Below, one piece after another: positions 14,007-45,161 of a DNA stretch of 64,000 nucleotides. The stretch's first letter is position 1. The number at the start of each line of letters is the position of its first letter. This stretch comes from Flavisphingopyxis soli (GTDB lineage Bacteria > Pseudomonadota > Alphaproteobacteria > Sphingomonadales > Sphingomonadaceae). The stretch lies in contig NZ_VOPY01000003.1 of assembly GCF_007995095.1 (NCBI RefSeq), forward strand, positions 124,001-188,000, in the 5' to 3' direction. The position numbers and the translations under genes were made by a program. Under the pieces are notes generated by a model that made no database searches, was not told the origin of the DNA, and worked only from the letters and a program-made list of their open reading frames with translations.

Positions 14007-15017
14007 TCAGGCGGCGGCGAGCAGCTCCTCGGCGCACGGTGCGCTCTCGAGATACTCGATCAGGCCGCGTTCGTAGCGGTTGAGGTAGCGCGTCGCGCGC
14101 GGCAGGCGCAACCCCTGTCGGAATTCGGCCTGCTCGGCCTTGCACACCTGCAGCATCGCGGGATGGATGTACGACTTGCGCGCGATCGCCGGAGTGTTGC
14201 CGAGCGAGCCCGAGACGTGATCGAGCAGCTCCTTCATCGCGACCTCGCCCTTGCCATCGACAAGCCGTTGGAACGCGGCGAGGCTCGCCGACCAGGTGCG
14301 GAAGTTCTTGGCGGTGAAATCGTCGCCCATCGCTTCGTGGATGTAATCGTTGACGTCGGTCGAGGTGACGGGGTGCGGCTCGCCGTCGCCATCGACATAC
14401 TGGAACAGCTTCTGGCCGGGCAGGTCCTGCATCCGCGTGACGATCGTCGCGAGGCTGCGGTCGGTGATCGCGACTTCGCGCAGCTGACCCGACTTGGCGC
14501 GGAACTTGAGCTTGATCGTCGTGCCGGTGAGGCGGGCATGGCGGCGGCGCAGTGTGGTGGCGCCGAAGCTCTTGTTGCGCACGGCATAGCTTTCGTTGCC
14601 GACGCGCAGCGCCGACAGGTCGAGCAGGCGGACGACCGCGGCGACGGCGCGTTCGCGGCTCAGGCTGCGCGCGCGCAGATCCTTTTCGAGGCGTTGGCGC
14701 AGCAGCGGCAGCGCGCGGCCGAACGCAGCGCAGGCCTCGTACTTCTCGGCCTCGCGCGCGGCGCGGAAATCGGGATGGTAGCGATACTGCTTGCGGCCCT
14801 TGTCGTCATAGCCGGTGGCGAGGATGTGGCCGTTGGGCGCGGGGCAGAACCAGGCGTCGACATAGGCAGGCGGCAGCGCGATGGCGTTGAGCCGGTCGAT
14901 CTCCTCGCGGTCGTCGATGTGCTTTCCCTTGGCATCGTAATAGGCCCAGCCGGTCCCGGCACGCTTGCGCGTGATGCCGGGCAGGTCGTCGTCGATGTAG
15001 ATGAGCTTGTCGGCCAT
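14007..15017 (-). CDS. DNA topoisomerase IB
   Basis: A 336-residue eukaryote-like type IB topoisomerase, which relaxes supercoils through a 3'-phosphotyrosine intermediate. The ATG at 15017 (MADKLIYIDDDLPGI) is chosen; the frame stays open further upstream but overlaps the promoter region of the divergent gene. The N-terminal domain has GWAYYDAKGKHI and PPAYVDAWFCP; the catalytic part contains LSALRVGNESYA, FRAKSG and the nucleophile tyrosine in ARKSYIHPAML. Bacterial members of this length are known in many alphaproteobacteria and lack the linker of the eukaryotic enzyme. Confidence 0.92.
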   Translation of the reverse strand: MADKLIYIDDDLPGITRKRAGTGWAYYDAKGKHIDDREEIDRLNAIALPPAYVDAWFCPAPNGHILATGYDDKGRKQYRYHPDFRAAREAEKYEACAAFGRALPLLRQRLEKDLRARSLSRERAVAAVVRLLDLSALRVGNESYAVRNKSFGATTLRRRHARLTGTTIKLKFRAKSGQLREVAITDRSLATIVTRMQDLPGQKLFQYVDGDGEPHPVTSTDVNDYIHEAMGDDFTAKNFRTWSASLAAFQRLVDGKGEVAMKELLDHVSGSLGNTPAIARKSYIHPAMLQVCKAEQAEFRQGLRLPRATRYLNRYERGLIEYLESAPCAEELLAAA

Positions 15018-15173
15018 CGGTTTGCTTTCGCACGCGTAATCGGTGCGATTCCAAACCTTCGCAGCGGCCATTCGTTCCCGCGGTTGGGGGCACGGGACGA
15101 TTAAATAATGCGCAACAAAATCCGCTGCCGATGGTTTTCCTCCTATCCCCCGACACCATGACAGGAGCCGACC

Positions 15174-15725
15174 ATGGCCGACCTTAGCGGCAAGAAAATC
15201 CTTTTCATCGCGACCGACGGGTTCGAATATTCCGAACTGACCGAACCGCGCGACTATCTGACCGGCGAGGGCGCCGAGGTGACTCTGGCATCGCCCAAGA
15301 GCGACCCGATACAGGGCGAAAGCGGAGGCGAGAAACAGGGCAAGGTGACCCCCGATATCACGATCGACGAGGTCGATTGCGACGATTACGACGCGCTGGT
15401 GATCCCGGGCGGCGTGACCAATCCCGATGCGCTGAGGATGAACGCGCGCGCGGTTGAAATCGTCGCCGAATTCGCCGCGGCCGAAAAGCCGATCGCGGCG
15501 ATCTGCCACGGGCCGTGGTTGCTGGTCGAGGCCGACGTGATCGACGGCGTCCAGGCGACCAGCTGGCCCTCGCTGCGCACCGATCTTGAGAATGCGGGCG
15601 CCGACGTGGTCGACCGCGAAGTGGTCGTCGATGGCAATTTCATCACCAGCCGCAAGCCCGACGATATCCCCGCATTCAGCCGCGCGATTTCGGACGCGCT
15701 GATCGAGGCGGATGTCGATGCGTAG
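15174..15725 (+). CDS. DJ-1/PfpI-family glutamine-amidotransferase-like protein
   Basis: A 183-residue flavodoxin-fold protein with the nucleophile elbow AAICHGPWLLVE and the acid-site region of PfpI proteases and YhbO-like proteins. The ATG at 15174 follows AGGAG. Family members are variously described as stress-response proteases, glyoxalases or protein and nucleotide deglycases, so the reaction is left open. It is cytoplasmic and probably monocistronic, divergent from topoisomerase IB. Confidence 0.88.
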   Translation: MADLSGKKILFIATDGFEYSELTEPRDYLTGEGAEVTLASPKSDPIQGESGGEKQGKVTPDITIDEVDCDDYDALVIPGGVTNPDALRMNARAVEIVAEFAAAEKPIAAICHGPWLLVEADVIDGVQATSWPSLRTDLENAGADVVDREVVVDGNFITSRKPDDIPAFSRAISDALIEADVDA

Positions 15726-15819
15726 GGAGTGATCGACGCGGTGGGGAGCTGCGCCAAGCTCTTTGTTAAAGCTCAGCCTTAATGACCGCCACTGTCCTTA
15801 GTCGGGTGGGAAGCGGACA

Positions 15820-16266
15820 TCAGTCATCACGTAGCCACTTTGACACATCAGGCTTCATCCAGCCTAAATCTTCGCGCAGACCAAAAGCTTCGCATTGCTG
15901 CTTGAGCGTTTTCGTCGCGAAGTCGTATGCCATGGCATAGCCACGGTCGAAGTCCGTATCACCTGTTAGTTCGTCAAGGTGCTCCTTCATTTCTAATACG
16001 GTATCGCGCAGCATCAGGGCATGAGGTGAAGGTTCCGTAACTCGCAGCGAACTTGCAGCGTAGCGAAGGATATAGGGCTTCTCTCGCGGCGTGCGGACAG
16101 GCGCCTCGGCACCAAAAAAAGCGACGTAGCAGTCATAGGCGTCAATTTCGTCGTCACCCCAGCAGTGAACTACCACACCGTGTTCGAATTCACCGTCCGT
16201 TGGACTTTTTAGGCTCACTTTTGTGCCGGGAGCCAAGTAACGGTCGAGCGTATGTTCGTCTGACAT
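15820..16266 (-). CDS. Orphan hypothetical protein of lower GC content
   Basis: A 148-residue acidic cytoplasmic protein (MSDEHTLDRYLAPGTKVSL) with no domain I recognise. The first half has a beta-rich look (GVVVHCWGDDEIDAYDCYVAFFG) as in small SH3/Tudor-like barrels; the second half is helical. Codon use is visibly less GC-biased than in the surrounding genes, as in the neighbouring antiporter gene, suggesting that both belong to an acquired islet. The ATG lacks a strong ribosome site. Confidence 0.65.
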   Translation of the reverse strand: MSDEHTLDRYLAPGTKVSLKSPTDGEFEHGVVVHCWGDDEIDAYDCYVAFFGAEAPVRTPREKPYILRYAASSLRVTEPSPHALMLRDTVLEMKEHLDELTGDTDFDRGYAMAYDFATKTLKQQCEAFGLREDLGWMKPDVSKWLRDD

Positions 16267-16320
16267 TTCCGCATTTTATACGACAGCGCCAATCTCCGCA
16301 ATTGGGCCGTTTGCCGTCGC

Positions 16321-16499
16321 TCAATCCAAATCTATGCCGATGCGACCGGCTCCGCCGCTGCCGCCGCCTTCGTCTTGCTCATCAGCGGGCGCCATTCGGC
16401 CTCTTTTTCGCGACGCCTGATGTAGGTGGCGAGGCCGATCTGGAGCGCGAGCATCATGTCGATGAAGCTCTGGAAAGCGACGCCGACGAACAGCGAGCC
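16321..16499. repeat. Direct repeat copy A (end of the O-glycosylation ligase gene)
   Basis: About 180 bases matching 18425-18603 in the same orientation. The 115 bases nearest the antiporter gene differ at only about six positions; the part nearest the stop codon is more divergent. The copies bound the antiporter gene. Confidence 0.9.
16332..16499 (-). pseudogene. Displaced 3' fragment of an exosortase-associated O-glycosylation ligase gene
   Basis: Read on the minus strand, the fragment encodes 55 residues, starting GSLFVGVAFQSFIDMMLALQ, continuing through YIRRREKEAEWRPLM and ending in EPVASA and a TAG. These are homologous, residue by residue, to the last 55 residues of the intact gene at 18436-19812. 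Homology stops abruptly at 16500. No start codon belongs to it, so it is a gene end left behind by insertion or recombination. Confidence 0.88.
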
Positions 16500-16551
16500 A
16501 GTAAGAGGCAGATGTCAGGTTTTGACAAACCTTGGCCTGATGGTTGCTGGT

Positions 16552-18288
16552 CTAGACCGCCCGCTCACGGTCCATGGTTCCCATTTGCCATACGCGCTGG
16601 GCATCAACCAATGTGCGGGCGACATCTTCTGGAAATCCGATTCCTGTGAGCAATTGCTCGCAAAGCTCAAGGCTGGCTTCCATGGTTTCGGGGACGGCGC
16701 TTCTAGCGCCGGAGCCACGCAACACCACAGCATGGTCGACATCGCGGGCACGCGCGATGATCGGGACGTGCGGCCATGTTTGGTGGATCGCCTTTATGAC
16801 ATGTTCTGCCGTTTCGGGCGCATCCATTGTGGTGGCAAAGGCCGCGGCATTTTCGATCCCCAAATGTCGCAGGACATCAGGCTGGCTGGCATCGCCAAAA
16901 TATATCGGCCTTCCGTGCGCGCGCTGTTCAGCAACAAGCTCGGGATCGTTATCGACCGCAATGAACGGTATTCGCTGTTCCTCCAGCACATGTGCCAACA
17001 CTTTTCCAACTCTGCCGAATCCGCCAATGATGACTGTCTGGCTTCCATCTGATGTCGCCACCAAATCGGGCGCCTCTGCGCTGGCTTCGCGAAGACCCGC
17101 AGCCAGTTTGCGCCCCACAGCCGCAAGCGCGGGGGTCAGGAACATGGTGACAATGACGACCATCAACATGAACTGGGCGACATCAGGATCAAGCAGGGCG
17201 AATGACAGCGCAGCTGCGATCACGACAAAGGCAAATTCCCCGCCCTGGCTCATCATTATCGATGTTTCCGCCGCCACTGCGGTGGGCAAGCGAAACGCCT
17301 TGGCGAGAGCAAATGTTATCACGGTTTTCAGCGCCAGAAGCCCAATGACAGATGTCACCACCCATAGAATATCGTGCCACACCGCAGCCATATCCAGGCT
17401 CATGCCAACCGATATGAAAAACAGGCCGAGCAGCAGCCCCTTGAAGGGCTCTATATCGGTCGCGATCTGGTGGCGATATTCGGTTCCAGCAAATAGCAGA
17501 CCAGCCAAGAACGCCCCAAGTGCCATCGAAAGCCCAGCTTGAGCTGTGAGCGCGGCAGTCGCCAGCACAAGCAGCAGCACGGCTGCCATGAATGCCTCTC
17601 GGCTGCCCGTGCTGCTGACAAATTTCAGCCAAGGCCGGACAATCACGCGGCCAGCCAGAAAGATTGCCGTGATGACCAGTGCGGCCTCCCCGATTGCCCA
17701 CGCAGCCGCTCCGGCAAGCGACCCTTCGACATTGGGTCCAACAAATCCGACAAAAAACAGGATTGGGACTACCGCCAGATCCTGAAGCAGCAATATTCCA
17801 AACGCGCTTCGCCCGGGGGGCGTGTTAAGCCGCCGGTTTTCGGTGAGTAGCTGCATGACGAGGGCGGTGGAGGAAAGCGCCAGACAAAGCCCATAGATTG
17901 CTGATGCGACGAGCGAATTGCCAAACAGGTAAGCGATGACGCCGATTGTCAACGCGGTTACGACAACTTGCGCTACCCCTAAACCGAATACCAGCCGCCG
18001 CATCGCCCAGAGCTGCGCTGTCGATAGCTCCAGCCCGATCGTGAAGAGGAGAAATATGACCCCCAATTCGGCGAACCGTCTGACTCCGTCGAGATCATCG
18101 AAAACTGCATATTCGAGAACCGGCGCGGCGCCGACCAGCTGCCCGGCACCATGCGGGCCAATCAGCAAGCCTACGAACAAGAAGCCGAGAACCGGGCTTA
18201 TCCCGAGCTTGCGCACCAGAGGGATTATCAATCCGGCCGCAACCAGAAAGACCATCGCTTCCCTCAGATACGGAATTTCAGGATGCAT
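16552..18288 (-). CDS. Monovalent cation:proton antiporter, KefB-like (CPA2) with TrkA-N domain
   Basis: A 578-residue protein. Residues 1-390 hold the CPA2 antiporter domain (about 12-13 helices) with FLLFTIGLELS, LALSSTALVMQLL, FGILLLQDLAVVPIL and SQGGEFAFV segments as in KefB/KefC and RosB-like proteins. Residues of about 415-535 form a Rossmann RCK domain (IIGGFGRVGKVLAHVLEE). It should exchange K+ or Na+ for protons at the inner membrane, gated by a nucleotide. Its GC content and codon use are lower than those of its neighbours. It stands alone between the two copies of a direct repeat. Confidence 0.92.
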   Translation of the reverse strand: MHPEIPYLREAMVFLVAAGLIIPLVRKLGISPVLGFLFVGLLIGPHGAGQLVGAAPVLEYAVFDDLDGVRRFAELGVIFLLFTIGLELSTAQLWAMRRLVFGLGVAQVVVTALTIGVIAYLFGNSLVASAIYGLCLALSSTALVMQLLTENRRLNTPPGRSAFGILLLQDLAVVPILFFVGFVGPNVEGSLAGAAAWAIGEAALVITAIFLAGRVIVRPWLKFVSSTGSREAFMAAVLLLVLATAALTAQAGLSMALGAFLAGLLFAGTEYRHQIATDIEPFKGLLLGLFFISVGMSLDMAAVWHDILWVVTSVIGLLALKTVITFALAKAFRLPTAVAAETSIMMSQGGEFAFVVIAAALSFALLDPDVAQFMLMVVIVTMFLTPALAAVGRKLAAGLREASAEAPDLVATSDGSQTVIIGGFGRVGKVLAHVLEEQRIPFIAVDNDPELVAEQRAHGRPIYFGDASQPDVLRHLGIENAAAFATTMDAPETAEHVIKAIHQTWPHVPIIARARDVDHAVVLRGSGARSAVPETMEASLELCEQLLTGIGFPEDVARTLVDAQRVWQMGTMDRERAV

Positions 18289-18424
18289 GGTCGGATCTCT
18301 TTATGTCAGGATAAGGAGAATTGGGTCGCGCCGATATCCGCTCACTCTTGTCTGACTGAACGGTCGGTTTCGGGATGCTAGCTGGTTGCCTGGAAGGGCG
18401 CAAATTGGGTCGTTAGGGGGGCGG

Positions 18425-18603
18425 TCAATCCCAGATTAGACCGATGCGACCGGCTCGGTTGGCTTGGGCACCTTCGCCTTGCCCATCAACGGTCGCCATT
18501 CCGCCTCTTTTTCGCGACGCCTGATGTAGGTGGCGAGACCGATCTGGAGCGCGAGCATCATGTAGATGAAGCTCTGGAAGGCGATGCCGACGAACAGCGA
18601 ACC
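18425..18603. repeat. Direct repeat copy B (inside the intact O-glycosylation ligase gene)
   Basis: The counterpart of 16321-16499; it consists of the last 168 bases of the intact ligase gene plus about ten bases after its stop codon. Confidence 0.9.
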
Positions 18604-19812
18604 GACCATGTAGACGATCTGCGCATTTTCGAGCGCGGTGGCGAGCGGGGCGACCCAGAGCTTGTCGGGGTCGGTCGTCTTGCGATAACGCGCGCGCAGC
18701 CGCTCCATCTGCCAGATGCCGGTGAGGTGGAGGAGCAGCCACAGCGCAAGGCCGGGATAGCCCTGTTCGCCGAGCATTTCGAAATAGCTCGAATGATAGG
18801 CGCGCGCCTGATCGACGACGCGGTCGCTTTCGACCGTTGTCTGGCTGCCGACGCTGGTCGTCGCCTCGGTCTCATAGCTGATCCGGTTGCCGCGATAGGC
18901 GTCGAAACCACCGCCGAAGGGATGATCCTTGGCGTAGTTCCAGGTCCACTGCCACACCGCGATGCGCGTCGAGGCCGAGCGGTCGGCCTCGTAATTCTGG
19001 ATCGTCCCCATCCGCTGCGTATAGCTCGCCGGCAGGAACGGTACCGCGACCAGCACGAGCAGCGCGGCGCCGCCGAGATAGAGCAGGCGATAGCGCACGG
19101 TGCGCAGCATCAAGATGCCGAGCACCGCGGCGCAGACGAGGCCGGTGCGCGCCTGCGTCCCGATCGGCAGCAACAGGCAGGCGAAGACGAGCCCGGCGGC
19201 GAACACAGTGACGTATTTCGACTTGGGAAAGACCGTGCCGAAACGCGCGAGCCAGACGATCAGCGGGATCACCGCGATGCCGACGGTCGACATGATGCTG
19301 CCTTCGTAGAGGCCGTAATTCTCGTTGAGCAGCAGCTGCAGCGAGCCATAGCCGCCGCCCGAGACGAGCGTCTTGATACCGCCCGAAATCGCGATCGAGG
19401 CGACCGACAGGACCATGACCAGCGCGAGCGATTCGATGCGCAGCCGCGTGCGTAGTGTCAGCGGCAGGAAGATCGCCCACAGCAGCGCCTTCCACACCCA
19501 GTCCCATTTGACGAGCGCCTCGGCGGGGAAATCGGCCTGTAGCGTGGTCAGGCCGCAATAGACCAGCAGCAGGACGAGCAGGATCTGGCGTCCCGATATG
19601 CGCACGTCGCGCTTGGCATCGGCGATCAGCCAGCCGAGCAGCGCGAAGACGAAGCAGACGAGCGAGACGGGAATCGCGTTGACGAGATAATAGCTCAGTT
19701 TCTGCGGCGCGACGATGTCGACGTAGCAATAGGCGAGCACGAGCAGGAACGGGCGCTTGAGCCCGAGGCCGAGGAAGCCGGCGAGGAACAGGACGAAGAA
19801 GATGTCACGCAT
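18436..19812 (-). CDS. Exosortase-A-system-associated putative O-glycosylation ligase
   Basis: A 458-residue polytopic membrane protein of the Wzy/WaaL ligase-like class. The opening MRDIFFVLFLAGFLGLGLKR, the motif VDIVAPQKLSYYL and the large loop with HPFGGGFDAYRGN...AYHSSYFEMLGEQG.PGL are those of the TIGR03097 family that accompanies exosortase A loci. It would transfer polysaccharide or glycan to a target at the periplasmic face. The start overlaps the upstream 58-codon gene by eight bases, so the two are translated together. Its 3' end is duplicated at 16332-16499. Confidence 0.9.
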   Translation of the reverse strand: MRDIFFVLFLAGFLGLGLKRPFLLVLAYCYVDIVAPQKLSYYLVNAIPVSLVCFVFALLGWLIADAKRDVRISGRQILLVLLLVYCGLTTLQADFPAEALVKWDWVWKALLWAIFLPLTLRTRLRIESLALVMVLSVASIAISGGIKTLVSGGGYGSLQLLLNENYGLYEGSIMSTVGIAVIPLIVWLARFGTVFPKSKYVTVFAAGLVFACLLLPIGTQARTGLVCAAVLGILMLRTVRYRLLYLGGAALLVLVAVPFLPASYTQRMGTIQNYEADRSASTRIAVWQWTWNYAKDHPFGGGFDAYRGNRISYETEATTSVGSQTTVESDRVVDQARAYHSSYFEMLGEQGYPGLALWLLLHLTGIWQMERLRARYRKTTDPDKLWVAPLATALENAQIVYMVGSLFVGIAFQSFIYMMLALQIGLATYIRRREKEAEWRPLMGKAKVPKPTEPVASV

Positions 19813-19981
19813 CGCGCGCGCCCCATGGCTTGGGCTTGGGCTTGGACGGTGCGGGGGCGGTCACCTCGGGCGCGTCGGCCCATCGGCCGCTTTCCTGGTC
19901 GAGGTCGGGCCGGCCGAGCAATCGCCACAGCGCAAAAGCGAGCAGGCCGTGCGACAGCAGGATGGAGAAATTGTCGACCAT
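19805..19981 (-). CDS. Small 58-residue membrane-anchored protein of the exosortase locus
   Basis: An ATG at 19981 opens a 58-codon frame beginning MVDNFSILLSHGLLAFALWR and ending PKPKPWGARDA. Its TGA overlaps the start of the O-glycosylation ligase by eight bases, so translational coupling is likely. Residues 5-22 form one hydrophobic helix, followed by an acidic and then Pro/Lys-rich cytosolic tail. Codon use is GC3-rich like the ligase. I do not recognise a named family; its position in the exosortase-associated unit suggests a partner of the ligase. Confidence 0.72.
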   Translation of the reverse strand: MVDNFSILLSHGLLAFALWRLLGRPDLDQESGRWADAPEVTAPAPSKPKPKPWGARDA

Positions 19982-20044
19982 GTCGCCGCCATAATGGCAT
20001 TCGGTTGACGCGCCGTTAAGCGAATTGCGCTAGGGCCTGCGCCA

Positions 20045-21244
20045 ATGACGCGCGTTCTCCATATCCTCGACCACAGCCTGCCCGCGCATTCGGGCTATAC
20101 CTTTCGCACGCGCGCGATCCTGAAGGCGCAGCAGGCGCGCGGCTGGGACGTCGCCGGGGTTACCGGCGTGCGCCATCCGCTGCCGGGTCCGCCATACGAA
20201 CGGATCGACGGGATCGATTTCTATCGCACGCCTGCCATTCCAAAGCTGCCGAGCCCGATCCGCGAATGGCGCGAAATCGGTGCGCTCGCCGCGCGGATCG
20301 ACGAACTGTGCGCGATCGAGCGGCCCGATATCCTCCACGCGCATTCGCCGGTGCTCGATGCGCTGGCGGCGGCGCGCGTCGCCAAAAAACGCGGCCTGCC
20401 GCTGGTCTATGAGATTCGCGCCTTCTGGGAGGATGCCGCGGTCGGCAACGGTACGGGGCGCGAGGGCAGCATCAAATACCGCCTGATCCGCGGGCTCGAA
20501 CGCCGCGCGGTCGATACCGCCGACGCGGTCGTCGTGATCTGTAACGGGCTGCGCGACGATCTGATCGCGCGCGGGGTCGCGGCGGACAAGATCACGGTAT
20601 CGCCCAACGGCGTCGACCTGGCGCTGTTCGGGGCGCCGCCGCAGCCCGACGCGACGCTGCGCAGCGCGCTCGGCCTCGACGATGCCGAGGTGATCGGATT
20701 TATCGGGAGCTTCTACGATTACGAAGGAATCGACGACCTGATCGCGGCGATGCCCGCGCTCGTCGCGGCGCGGCCCAAGGCGAAACTGCTGCTTGTCGGT
20801 GGCGGGCCGTGCGAGGCGGCGCTGAGGGCACAGGCTGCATCGCCGGTGCGCGACCATATCGTCTTTGCCGGCCGCGTGCCGCACGACGACGTCGAACGCT
20901 ATTATGCGCTGATCGACGTCCTCGCCTATCCGCGCAAAAAGATGCGGCTGACCGAGCTGGTAACGCCGCTGAAACCATTGGAGGCGATGGCGCAGCGGCG
21001 GATCGTCGCGGCATCGGACATCGGCGGTCATCGCGAACTGATCAAGGACGGGGTGACGGGAACGCTGTTCAAACCTTCGAATCCCGCCGATATTGCCGCC
21101 ACCTTGGCCGACCTGCTGGCGCGCCGCGGCGACTGGGAGGCGATGCGCGCGGCGGGGCGCGCGTTCGTCGAGCGCGAGCGCGACTGGTCGGCGAACGTGT
21201 TGCGTTACGAACCTGTTTACCAAAAGTTGATAGACGGCAGATGA
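20045..21244 (+). CDS. Exosortase-A-system-associated glycosyltransferase (GT4 family)
   Basis: A 399-residue GT-B glycosyltransferase. The opening RVLHILDHSLPAHSGYTFRT and the block PDILHAHSPVLDALAA...LVYEIRAFWEDAAV are diagnostic of the exosortase-A-associated glycosyltransferase family TIGR04063. The nucleotide-sugar site is in KITVSPNGVD, GFIGSFYDYEGIDDL and the C-terminal LVTPLKPLEAMA segment with the catalytic glutamate. It acts in the cytoplasm on a lipid-linked glycan or exopolysaccharide precursor. It is divergent from the ligase unit; the 63 bases between them carry a TTGACG at 20005. Confidence 0.92.
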   Translation: MTRVLHILDHSLPAHSGYTFRTRAILKAQQARGWDVAGVTGVRHPLPGPPYERIDGIDFYRTPAIPKLPSPIREWREIGALAARIDELCAIERPDILHAHSPVLDALAAARVAKKRGLPLVYEIRAFWEDAAVGNGTGREGSIKYRLIRGLERRAVDTADAVVVICNGLRDDLIARGVAADKITVSPNGVDLALFGAPPQPDATLRSALGLDDAEVIGFIGSFYDYEGIDDLIAAMPALVAARPKAKLLLVGGGPCEAALRAQAASPVRDHIVFAGRVPHDDVERYYALIDVLAYPRKKMRLTELVTPLKPLEAMAQRRIVAASDIGGHRELIKDGVTGTLFKPSNPADIAATLADLLARRGDWEAMRAAGRAFVERERDWSANVLRYEPVYQKLIDGR

Positions 21245-41256: not shown

Positions 41257-41706
41257 ATGGAACGTGACACGATGCGACCCAGATTGGCGATCGGGGGCGT
41301 GCCGCTGCACGCGATGATCGTGCCCTTTCCGATTGCGTGCTTTGTCGGTGCAATGATTACCGACATCATCTATGCGCAGACTGCCGAGATCCAGTGGGCG
41401 AATTTTTCGGCGTGGCTGCTCGCCTTTGGCTGTTTCATGGGCGGCATCGCCGCGCTCGGCGGGCTGATCGACTATTTCGGTAATGCCAAGGCGGCGCGCC
41501 CCGCGATCGGCCTGTGGCACGGCATCATCAATATCTTCGTGTTGCTGCTCGGCCTGCTCAACAGCTTCGTTCATGCGCGCGACGGCTGGACGTCGGTCGT
41601 GCCGACGGGGCTGACGCTGTCGGTGATTACCGTGTTGCTGCTGACCGTTTCGGGCTTTCTTGGCCACCGCATGGCCTACACGCATATCGGGAGGACCGTA
41701 CGATGA
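41257..41706 (+). CDS. DUF2231 membrane protein coupled to the sugar dehydrogenase
   Basis: A 149-residue inner-membrane protein with four helices; the start at 41257 follows GGAGG. The conserved G.PLHAMIVPFPIACF segment is the DUF2231 signature with its HP-like motif in the first helix, and a second His occurs in GLWHGIINIFV. DUF2231 proteins may bind haem and often accompany periplasmic dehydrogenases of this kind. The ATGA overlap with the next gene shows translational coupling, making an electron-transfer partnership plausible. Confidence 0.85.
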   Translation: MERDTMRPRLAIGGVPLHAMIVPFPIACFVGAMITDIIYAQTAEIQWANFSAWLLAFGCFMGGIAALGGLIDYFGNAKAARPAIGLWHGIINIFVLLLGLLNSFVHARDGWTSVVPTGLTLSVITVLLLTVSGFLGHRMAYTHIGRTVR

Positions 41707-43022
41707 CCCGCACCCGTTTTGCCGCCGCATTGACCGCGACACTGCTCGCCGCCGCCTGCAGTTCATCGCCGCCACCGCCCGACGGGCAGGTCGGCACGAA
41801 CCCCAATCTGCCGTCGGCAACGCAATACCTGCTGCCGCCGATGAAAATCACGACGCCGGTCGGGTTCAAGGCGAACGAGACGCCGACCGTCCCCGCCGGT
41901 TTCCGCATCGTCGCGGTCGCGCGCGACCTCAGGGGGCCGCGCAATGTCCTGCCGCTGCCCAATGGCGACATCCTGGCGGTCGAGGCGGGCGGACCCGGCG
42001 GCGAGCCGGTGACGCGGCCCAAGGACCTGATCTACGGCATCGTCAAGGGCAAGGCGCACAGCCCGGTCAAGCCGGGCAACCGTGTCGTCCTGTTGCGTGA
42101 CACGACCGGCGACGGGGTTGCCGACCAGCGCGCGGTGTTGATCGACAAGCTCAATTCGCCGTTCGGCATCGCGCAGGTCGGCGGCAATCTCTACGTCGCC
42201 GAGACCGACAAGATCGTCCGCTATGCCTTCACGCCGGGGCAGGCGAAAATCACCGGGCCGGGAACGATCCTGACCGAATTGCCCGCCGGGCCGATCGACC
42301 ATCACTGGACCAAGAGCCTGACCGCGAGCCCCGACGGGACCAAGCTGTATGTCGGCATCGGATCGAACAGCAACATCGTCGAACGCGGCATCGGCGCCGA
42401 GTATGAGCGTGCGCGAATCTGGGAAGTCGATATCGCGACGGGCGCGCACCGGCCCTATGCTACCGGCCTGCGCAACCCCAACGGGCTGACCTTCCAGCCG
42501 GGGACCAATACGCTGTGGACGGTGGTCAACGAGCGTGACGAGATCGGCAACAACCTCGTCCCCGACTACATGACCTCGGTGAAGCCCGGTGCCTTCTACG
42601 GCTGGCCGTGGAGCTGGTATGGCCAGCATGTCGATATCCGCGTGATGCCGCGCAATCCGGCGATGGTGGCGAAAGCGATTGCACCCGATTACGCGCTCGG
42701 CCCGCATGTCGCGGCGCTGGGCCTCGCGTTCAACGTCGGCGGCGCGTTCGGAGCGCGGTTCGCGGGCGGCGCGTTCGTCGGTGAGCATGGCAGCTGGGAC
42801 CGCGATGTGCCCAATGGTTACGAGGTCGCCTTCGTGCCCTTCGCGAACGGCAAGCCCGCAGGCAAGGCCGAGACTTTCGTCGGCGGCTTCCTCGACAAGG
42901 ACAACCACACGCGCGGGCGGCCGGTCGGCGTGGCGTTCGATGCCAAGGGCGACCTGCTGATTGCCGATGATGTTGGGAACGCAGTGTGGCGGGTGAGTGC
43001 GGTGAAGAGGACGGCGGAGTAG
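41703..43022 (+). CDS. PQQ-dependent sugar (sorbosone-type) dehydrogenase-like lipoprotein
   Basis: A 439-residue exported protein with a signal and lipobox (AATLLAAAC-type, Cys in LLAAACSSSPPPPDG). The propeller blocks DLRGPRNVLPLPNGDILAVEAGG, HWTKSLTASPDGTKLYVGIGSN, RNPNGLTFQPGTNTLWTVVNERD and LIADDVGNAVWRVSA match the paralogue at 34726 almost block by block. It is translated from an ATGA junction with the DUF2231 gene and ends with a tag before low-complexity DNA. Sugar or alcohol oxidation in the periplasm is likely; the substrate is open. Confidence 0.9.
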   Translation: MTRTRFAAALTATLLAAACSSSPPPPDGQVGTNPNLPSATQYLLPPMKITTPVGFKANETPTVPAGFRIVAVARDLRGPRNVLPLPNGDILAVEAGGPGGEPVTRPKDLIYGIVKGKAHSPVKPGNRVVLLRDTTGDGVADQRAVLIDKLNSPFGIAQVGGNLYVAETDKIVRYAFTPGQAKITGPGTILTELPAGPIDHHWTKSLTASPDGTKLYVGIGSNSNIVERGIGAEYERARIWEVDIATGAHRPYATGLRNPNGLTFQPGTNTLWTVVNERDEIGNNLVPDYMTSVKPGAFYGWPWSWYGQHVDIRVMPRNPAMVAKAIAPDYALGPHVAALGLAFNVGGAFGARFAGGAFVGEHGSWDRDVPNGYEVAFVPFANGKPAGKAETFVGGFLDKDNHTRGRPVGVAFDAKGDLLIADDVGNAVWRVSAVKRTAE

Positions 43023-43103
43023 GAAGCTTTAATAGGGACAAGGTTTCGCTCGACTACTCTTGATCCAATTGCGGACGTTTTGGTTTGTTGCCATAACGCG
43101 TCC

Positions 43104-43733
43104 ATGACTTCTCCAGCTATTGGGCCGATGAGTGACGCTCTAGAGGCAGTTTATCGCGAATTCGCTTTGCCGAGGCCGCCGGTAATCGCAGGTTGCCCAT
43201 GCTGCATTTCGACGCGGGGCTGCGATGTTTTACTGAGCACTTCATTACGCCAAATTAGTGGCCAGCAACTCTGGCGATATGTGTCGGGTGCATTCCTTAC
43301 GGTCGGCGACGAAGCTGACTTCCGCTATCTGCTTCCGCGAATCCTAGATATATCGGTGAATGACCCAGCGAACGCGAATGATCCGCAAATTGTCATCGGA
43401 AAGCTCGGATTAGCCAATTTGCGGAATTGGACCACAGCGGAGCAGCAGGTAATCGAGGAGTTCTTGGACGCTTGGTTCGACCGGGCATTGGCTCGCGATC
43501 TTGCCGAAGCCGATCAGGACTGGATTGGCACGGAGGCTGAAAGCGTGCTTTGCGGAGTAGCAATTGCAGGGCTACCGCTGCATCGCTTGCTGGGTCGCTT
43601 GCAAGATCCGCACGCGGCACCCGTTCTCGCCGACCTGAAGAAGCGATTTCCAAGGCAATTGTCGGAGTTCTGGAAGGACGCCCCGAATGGTTTCACCGAG
43701 CTGTCTGCCATCTTGGCTCAAGATCAGCTGTAG
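43104..43733 (+). CDS. Orphan hypothetical cytosolic protein
   Basis: A protein of about 209 residues starting at an ATG near 43104 (43128 also possible). It is less GC-rich than its neighbours, like the islet at 16 kb. A cysteine cluster, CPCCISTRGCD, lies near its N-terminus and may bind metal. The rest is helical with DLAEADQDWIGTEAESVLCG and FPRQLSEFWKDAPNGFTEL. No family recognised. It is flanked by the unrelated dehydrogenase and rimO. Confidence 0.65.
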   Translation: MTSPAIGPMSDALEAVYREFALPRPPVIAGCPCCISTRGCDVLLSTSLRQISGQQLWRYVSGAFLTVGDEADFRYLLPRILDISVNDPANANDPQIVIGKLGLANLRNWTTAEQQVIEEFLDAWFDRALARDLAEADQDWIGTEAESVLCGVAIAGLPLHRLLGRLQDPHAAPVLADLKKRFPRQLSEFWKDAPNGFTELSAILAQDQL

Positions 43734-43784
43734 GGCCGCTTACGAACCAATCGCGGACAATTAAATTCCAACGAGACGTAGTTC

Positions 43785-45161
<1,377 letters not shown>

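Follow-up and report, generated by a model that had tools for sequence, protein, structure and literature searches.

The ligase locus and its repeated gene end

The window, by which we mean the whole 64-kb stretch of DNA that was analysed, contains a putative O-glycosylation ligase of the exosortase A (XrtA)-associated type on the minus strand at 18436..19812 (TIGR03097, 222.4 bits with a cut-off of 188.1; PF04932; PF19358). Repeat search and alignment show that the end of this gene is present twice. The longest direct repeat in the interval 14500-20500 pairs 16318-16499 with 18422-18603 (182 nt, 85% identity, spacing 2104); the runner-up family measured 37 nt at 70%. Copy A (18422..18603, minus strand) is the end of the intact ligase, including its last 168 bases, and copy B (16318..16499, minus strand) is a 5'-truncated ligase end whose junction with the KefB side lies at 16499/16500. 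As the initial annotation had described, the gene end recurs in the same orientation with the ligase frame kept up to a stop codon, TAG in copy B and TAA in the ligase. The similarity between the ligase ends extends beyond the stop to about 16300 (alignment 16300-16499), and a search with the repeat across the whole 2.59-Mb genome returned two matches, which were copies A and B.

Over the 168 coding bases the two copies differ at 23 positions. An earlier count of about six differences in the first 115 positions was too low, since there are eight, and the accompanying remark about a divergent end was right: the tail beside the stop codon is much more divergent. Of the differences in the first 120 nt, 6 are synonymous and 2 nonsynonymous. 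If this stretch mutated at random, about 2 synonymous changes of eight would be expected (P 0.002-0.007, the range reflecting transition bias). Over all 165 coding nt the ratio becomes 11 to 11, because the alanine/proline-rich tail differs strongly. In the 120 nt, copies A and B are 93.3% identical to each other, and they match the ligase of the congener at 80.8% and 79.2%, respectively. The differences in this part are mostly synonymous, so the two ends probably evolved apart as coding genes, each in its own relative, before being brought together. The simplest reading would be that copy B was once part of a working ligase in a relative closer than the congener; either copy may be the native one.

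Between the copies lies a gene for a KefB/KefC-like cation:proton antiporter of the CPA2 family (16552..18288, minus strand; PF00999, PF02254 (TrkA_N), TIGR00932), which is an acquired gene. It exceeds the cut-off of the CPA2 subfamily model TIGR00932 (239.4 bits, cut-off 238.3) and stays below the equivalog cut-offs for KefC (472.4 vs 752) and KefB (430.7 vs 804). Beyond copy B, on the same strand, is a 148-aa ORF (15820..16266) with no Pfam or NCBIfam match, which the initial annotation had overlooked. The two genes have a GC content of 57.9% and 53.0%, respectively, compared with 65.3% for the window and 63.9% for the ligase, and their GC3 is 63% and 54%, compared with 87% for the ligase. 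Thus the lower GC of the antiporter gene, reported in the initial annotation, is borne out. Neither normal base composition nor conserved synteny of the antiporter was found: at E<=1e-150 it occurs in 28 of 397 family genomes, this one included (best other match 82%), and the congener has no KefB ortholog, its best match being a 38% paralog. Plasmids yielded partial matches only, at 66-73%.

The genus is represented by two genomes in the comparison set, and the congener's ligase locus (L070) comes from a metagenome-assembled genome. It has one ligase end and neither the KefB-like gene nor the 148-aa ORF, the kind of single-copy relative that the initial annotation had proposed looking for. Its gene order is glycosyltransferase, ligase (82% protein identity), about 105 bp, PfpI (87%), topoisomerase IB and MscS. 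In the window, the gap between the ligase and the PfpI/DJ-1 gene (15174..15725, plus strand), a native neighbour found in the congener some 105 bp beyond the ligase stop, is 2,710 bp. Because the ligase adjoins PfpI in the congener, we take the acquired stretch to be 15726-18435, with the PfpI gene as its left limit. The islet was initially drawn at 16321-18603, which is too small, as low GC and foreign gene content reach left to about 15750. As read from the sequence, its contents are the KefB-like antiporter, the truncated ligase end and the 148-aa ORF; a ligase tail is thus set between two acquired genes.

The absence of a visible integrase also holds for the enlarged islet. The KefB-like gene is the sole gene between the copies, and inspection of ORFs and profiles revealed no transposase, integrase or other recombinase inside the islet. 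Among 80 ligase loci, with roughly 1 to 10 kb of downstream sequence per locus, none had more than 26 nt of its own ligase end repeated elsewhere, so no antiporter-free relative with both copies was seen. The gene beside the ligase differs among these loci (L070-L149), being topoisomerase IB, MscS, PfpI or another gene. The ligase end is therefore a variable place even without cassettes of the kind described below.

A family of single-gene units bounded by LE and RE sites

Comparison with a genome of a different genus (G335) sets limits to the 148-aa ORF. The ORF and its relative in G335 are 82.8% identical over 506 nt, in an alignment that runs from 16309 to 15804. The homology begins at a motif that we call LE (16291..16311, minus strand; CGRCCCAATTGCGG) and ends at a second motif, RE (15804..15821, minus strand; TGTCCGCTTYCCACCC). 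Each of the two sites departs from its consensus at 2 positions, and in a matrix scan of the window RE ranks first and LE second. The ORF was found in 7 of 397 family genomes including its own, and the congener was not among them. G335 provides the one full-length match (81% identical protein), and the remaining matches cover 63-80 residues at 44-56% identity. A plasmid search gave one match, at 43% over 47% of the length. Homology that starts and stops at LE and RE, in another genus and at another place, indicates that the 148-aa ORF is a separate single-gene mobile cassette between the two sites. The window contains a second cassette-like unit (43059..43761, plus strand), with an LE (5 mismatches), a right site and a 217-aa ORF at 43080-43733. 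It lies between the ends of two convergent genes, at 41514-43022 and 43785-45161 (the latter presumably RimO-like, judged by eye), and so, like the 148-aa ORF, sits at gene ends.

The 22-mer LE was searched for with at most three mismatches allowed, and the reversed motif served as a control. There are 13 LEs in the genome of the window, none for the reversed control and none in the congener. Nine of the 13 are followed 0.2-0.6 kb on by a same-strand RE, which in two cases has four mismatches. Among the remaining four, two are cut off by a contig start, one lies beside the recombinase gene discussed below, and one has no RE. Two contigs begin with the same LE (G000:C2:56-77 and C3:56-77), and the assembly may therefore break at a repeated cassette. 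Across the family, LE was found in 137 of 394 genomes, partly in arrays, and the control had one match among the matches listed. In one array (L255), four RE-to-LE junctions measure exactly 106 bp each with different genes between them; two longer arrays (L257 and L260) have other junction lengths.

Pairing each LE with the next RE gave 56 units that are distinct over a 100-nt stretch, with lengths of 268-1508 bp and a median of 508 bp; they come from motif-selected loci, and their number is not a frequency. The longest ORF runs in the LE-to-RE direction in 31 units and in the opposite direction in 25. An all-against-all comparison revealed three units common to different genera in different surroundings: L175/L235 (69% over 526 nt), L220/L265 (95.8% over 593 nt) and the G000/G335 unit described above. 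On both sides the homology ends close to the sites, within 8 bp of the LE and within 4 bp of the RE end. Conversely, L191 and L235 have one left flank in common and carry different units. These comparisons show that LE and RE are, at the level of sequence, the ends of mobile units with defined boundaries. Eight cargo proteins were searched against Pfam, four of which had matches (DUF4279, glyoxalase, DUF6713, META) and four none; Rfam had no matches in 61 kb of array loci.

Short sites have the form TGTCCGC-TTTCCACCCAATT-GCGGACA and as single-stranded DNA would make a hairpin (folding z of -3.4 and -8.7 for two sites). The right arm is kept in LE and the left arm in RE, and ACCC is common to both. 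Such a pattern would result if a circular unit carrying a single core were inserted into a target at ACCC, which we infer to be the mode of entry.

A weaker site of this kind may lie behind the intact ligase. A site matrix built from 55 units was scanned over the window, and it ranks fifth an LE-like core, TAACGACCCAATT (18394..18415, minus strand), located 20 bp after the ligase stop, with a weak right half and 5 mismatches to LE. Its score of 6.8 is at background level, other places in the window reaching 6.9 and 6.5; as a string, TAACGACCCAATT at 18394..18415 is the sole match in the window at up to 1 mismatch. A search of both strands of the window for the exact 10-mer CGACCCAATT gives two places, each of them located between the ligase and the KefB-like gene; the second (18319..18328, minus strand), 31 bp before KefB, has a poor full-site matrix rank of 260. 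The cassette LE behind copy B and TAACGACCCAATT behind copy A are equally far from the stop. Together these two sites suggest that both ligase alleles once had a cassette site behind the gene, or at least so it seems. The matrix scan of the window found no RE behind KefB and no good core at the junction 16499/16500. We also considered the KefB-like gene as a cassette of this family, a proposal that is unsupported: no acceptable RE is present (best matrix rank 583), the gene is 1.7 kb compared with a median unit of 508 bp, and other KefB loci (L013-L039, L150-L157) have no LE at up to 4 mismatches.

A short tyrosine recombinase beside the sites

In G335, the cassette with the 148-aa ORF adjoins a divergent 302-aa recombinase (L159 418-1326). 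Among profile models this protein comes closest to those for integron integrase and Xer, and it scores below their cut-offs (TIGR02249, 185.5 vs 265). It was our first candidate for the cassette enzyme and was dropped, as no other locus then compared had it. Its only other match, a weak one at 38%, is the gene at L261 for a 210-aa recombinase, which we call rec210. Matches to PF00589 in the genome of the window include a rec210 gene outside the window (G000:C1:676130-676759; L248 8128-8760, minus strand), and this gene is flanked by LE-like sites. A second rec210 match was counted in the same genome.

Pfam finds PF00589 alone in rec210 (78.6 bits). Across alignments of 8 and of 14 sequences, the residues R61, H158, R161, H184 and Y193 never vary, and they are placed like their counterparts in XerD, the closest solved relative (1a0p, E 1e-6); we take them to be the catalytic R, H-x-x-R, H and Y of tyrosine recombinases. 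Two structure predictions, with mean pLDDT of 44.7 and 47.0, were too poor for a fold search.

For the 30 best-scoring rec210 loci, which are not independent of one another, an RE (up to five mismatches) lies 77-82 bp past the stop-side end of the gene, in the same direction, in 13; it is missing from that place in 17, and 9 of the 30 have neither motif. A control with one mononucleotide shuffle per locus gave 7 REs at scattered places and no LE. On the 5' side of the gene, most of the 30 loci have GGGCCG..AGCGGAC, which by eye resembles an inverted site. In 11 pairs of loci the stretch from core to gene is at least 85% alike, and four pairs lose all similarity exactly at CCACCC (L299/L301, L299/L304, L301/L304 and L309/L328), the other seven breaking elsewhere. 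For example, L309 matches L328 perfectly for 85 nt, and beyond that point the two are unrelated; that is, the same platform is joined to a different last cassette. Finally, rec210 was found in 126 of 389 family genomes, the congener not among them, and LE is present in 67 of the 126 genomes with rec210 compared with 69 of the 263 without (P 3e-7, with genomes treated as independent). This association used rec210 at E<=1e-40 and 136 LE-bearing genomes, one having been dropped, with genome labels assumed to match between the two surveys; at that threshold 69 of the 136 have no rec210.

Relatives of rec210 are also found on plasmids (356 records at E<=1e-40, many genera). Among six plasmids examined, one from Sphingopyxis carries an RE at 77 bp beyond the gene and another has a degenerate RE by eye, and none of four rhizobial copies (L329, L330, L332, L333) has an RE at the 77-82 bp place. 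With relatives in many genera and rhizobial copies that are without the RE, the enzyme family is therefore wider than the arrays. We think it most likely, from the position of its gene, that rec210 drives the cassette recombination.

Origin of the repeat and comparison with known systems

The explanation that we consider best, and moderately probable, is an acquired islet that includes a unit of the cassette family, in which two ligase alleles with cassette sites were joined by recombination. The stretch 15726-18435 was acquired behind the ligase, and its left part is a single-gene cassette. Members of this cassette family occur alone or arrayed in Sphingomonadaceae-type genomes and would use a short palindromic core, TGTCCGCTTTCC-ACCC-(N)ATTGCGGACATT, for recombination, most likely via rec210, whose gene lies beside such sites. 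Two relatives with the same ligase and a cassette site about 20 bp behind it would have carried the alleles ligase-site-KefB and ligase-site-148-aa ORF. DNA of one allele would then have entered the other, homologously on one side and by end-joining or a site-specific event at 16499/16500, so that the two cargo genes came to stand side by side, separated by a truncated second ligase end. Neither allele, ligase-KefB or ligase-148-aa ORF, was found by itself in any strain, and the allele-by-allele history should be read as a reconstruction. The initial annotation's broader suggestion, an islet acquired at a gene end and involving DNA of a relative, is supported by the congener without the islet, the low GC and the diverged ends. 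Its more specific proposal of an element that restored the gene end upon insertion survives as far as acquisition goes, and otherwise becomes a rival. In this rival account a single element, circular or integrative, that carried KefB together with a ligase 3' end would have come into the ligase at 16499/18603, either through one crossover or through the action of a recombinase, so that the gene was restored with the element's end (copy A) and the native end (copy B) was pushed away. The anatomy fits exactly: copy B takes over at the point where the KefB-side sequence ends, both copies preserve the frame and a stop, and a site-specific cassette family lies next door. However, the 2.1 kb contain no integrase or second element gene, there is no good core at 16499/16500, and the 7% divergence with an LE core behind both ends implies that the element had picked up its ligase end at this very locus in a relative; most of the favoured account is thereby granted already. 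We regard a single element as rather unlikely. Duplication of the resident ligase end in place, by slippage or an ectopic event, with KefB arriving separately and the short copy decaying, would also give a direct repeat with one truncated copy. Neutral decay is at odds with 6 synonymous and 2 nonsynonymous differences in 120 nt (P 0.002-0.007), and the 80 ligase loci contain no other such duplicate; we consider this history highly improbable and reject plain duplication on the synonymous pattern.

A different objection concerns the sites themselves, which might be the ends of ordinary non-autonomous transposons or dispersed repeats. The inverted GTCCGC/GCGGAC arms do resemble short inverted repeats, and many units are solitary. 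Such elements would not readily account for tandem arrays in which the site spacing is fixed and each unit carries a different gene, for units that all run in one direction from LE to RE, for identical recombinase platforms joined to different units at CCACCC, or for the constant distance at which an RE lies from a tyrosine recombinase, and we judge this reading distinctly improbable.

Integrons are the classic bacterial route for collecting single genes, and their attC sites carry the boxes RYYYAAC and GTTRRRY. The system described here resembles integrons and CALINs (clusters of attC sites lacking integrase) in its single-gene cassettes in tandem arrays, its one palindromic site per junction, the tyrosine recombinase gene beside the array and the lone cassettes far from any recombinase. 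It differs in that rec210, with 210 aa and PF00589 alone, scores 23.6 bits against TIGR02249 (cut-off 265), attC R boxes are present in none of six distinct short sites, and cassette ORFs run in both directions (31 and 25). The RE that would correspond to attI is 77-82 bp past rec210 (13 of 30 loci), on the 3' side of the gene and not the 5'. The host class, Alphaproteobacteria, is another difference; a passage of a 2022 paper (PMC9668308) states that integrons are entirely absent from it. Because rec210 falls short of the IntI model and the short sites lack attC boxes, we do not call the system an integron, although it appears to work like one. A search of the open-licence literature, motif strings included and with subscription papers and preprints outside it, found no description of the LE/RE sites.

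Two other known systems are close. The Xer/dif system shares a short core with inverted arms, and XerD is the closest solved relative of rec210. XerC and XerD have about 300 aa with an N-terminal SAM-like domain, whereas Pfam finds no such domain in rec210. Islands at gene 3' ends likewise show a direct repeat of the gene end, an intact gene kept and the displaced end beyond the cargo; here, in contrast, the islet has no integrase, the repeat is 7-15% diverged and a single cargo gene lies between the copies.

On balance we lean slightly towards the view that Sphingomonadaceae-type Alphaproteobacteria have an integron class of their own, with a 210-aa recombinase consisting of the catalytic domain only, an attachment core next to the recombinase gene, and mobile cassettes of one gene each. 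The cassettes, whose palindromic core measures 29 bp, would occur in arrays or alone at gene ends genome-wide, and the ligase islet would be a place where two cassette alleles of one gene end lie side by side. If this is true, Alphaproteobacteria have a parallel system whose enzyme is smaller and whose site is simpler, which would account for the spread of many small genes of unknown function among environmental sphingomonads, and cassette capture would have evolved more than once from tyrosine recombinases. The ligase repeat is the smaller matter, a probable record of two alleles joined at one hot gene end, and the cassette system offers exact, testable sites.
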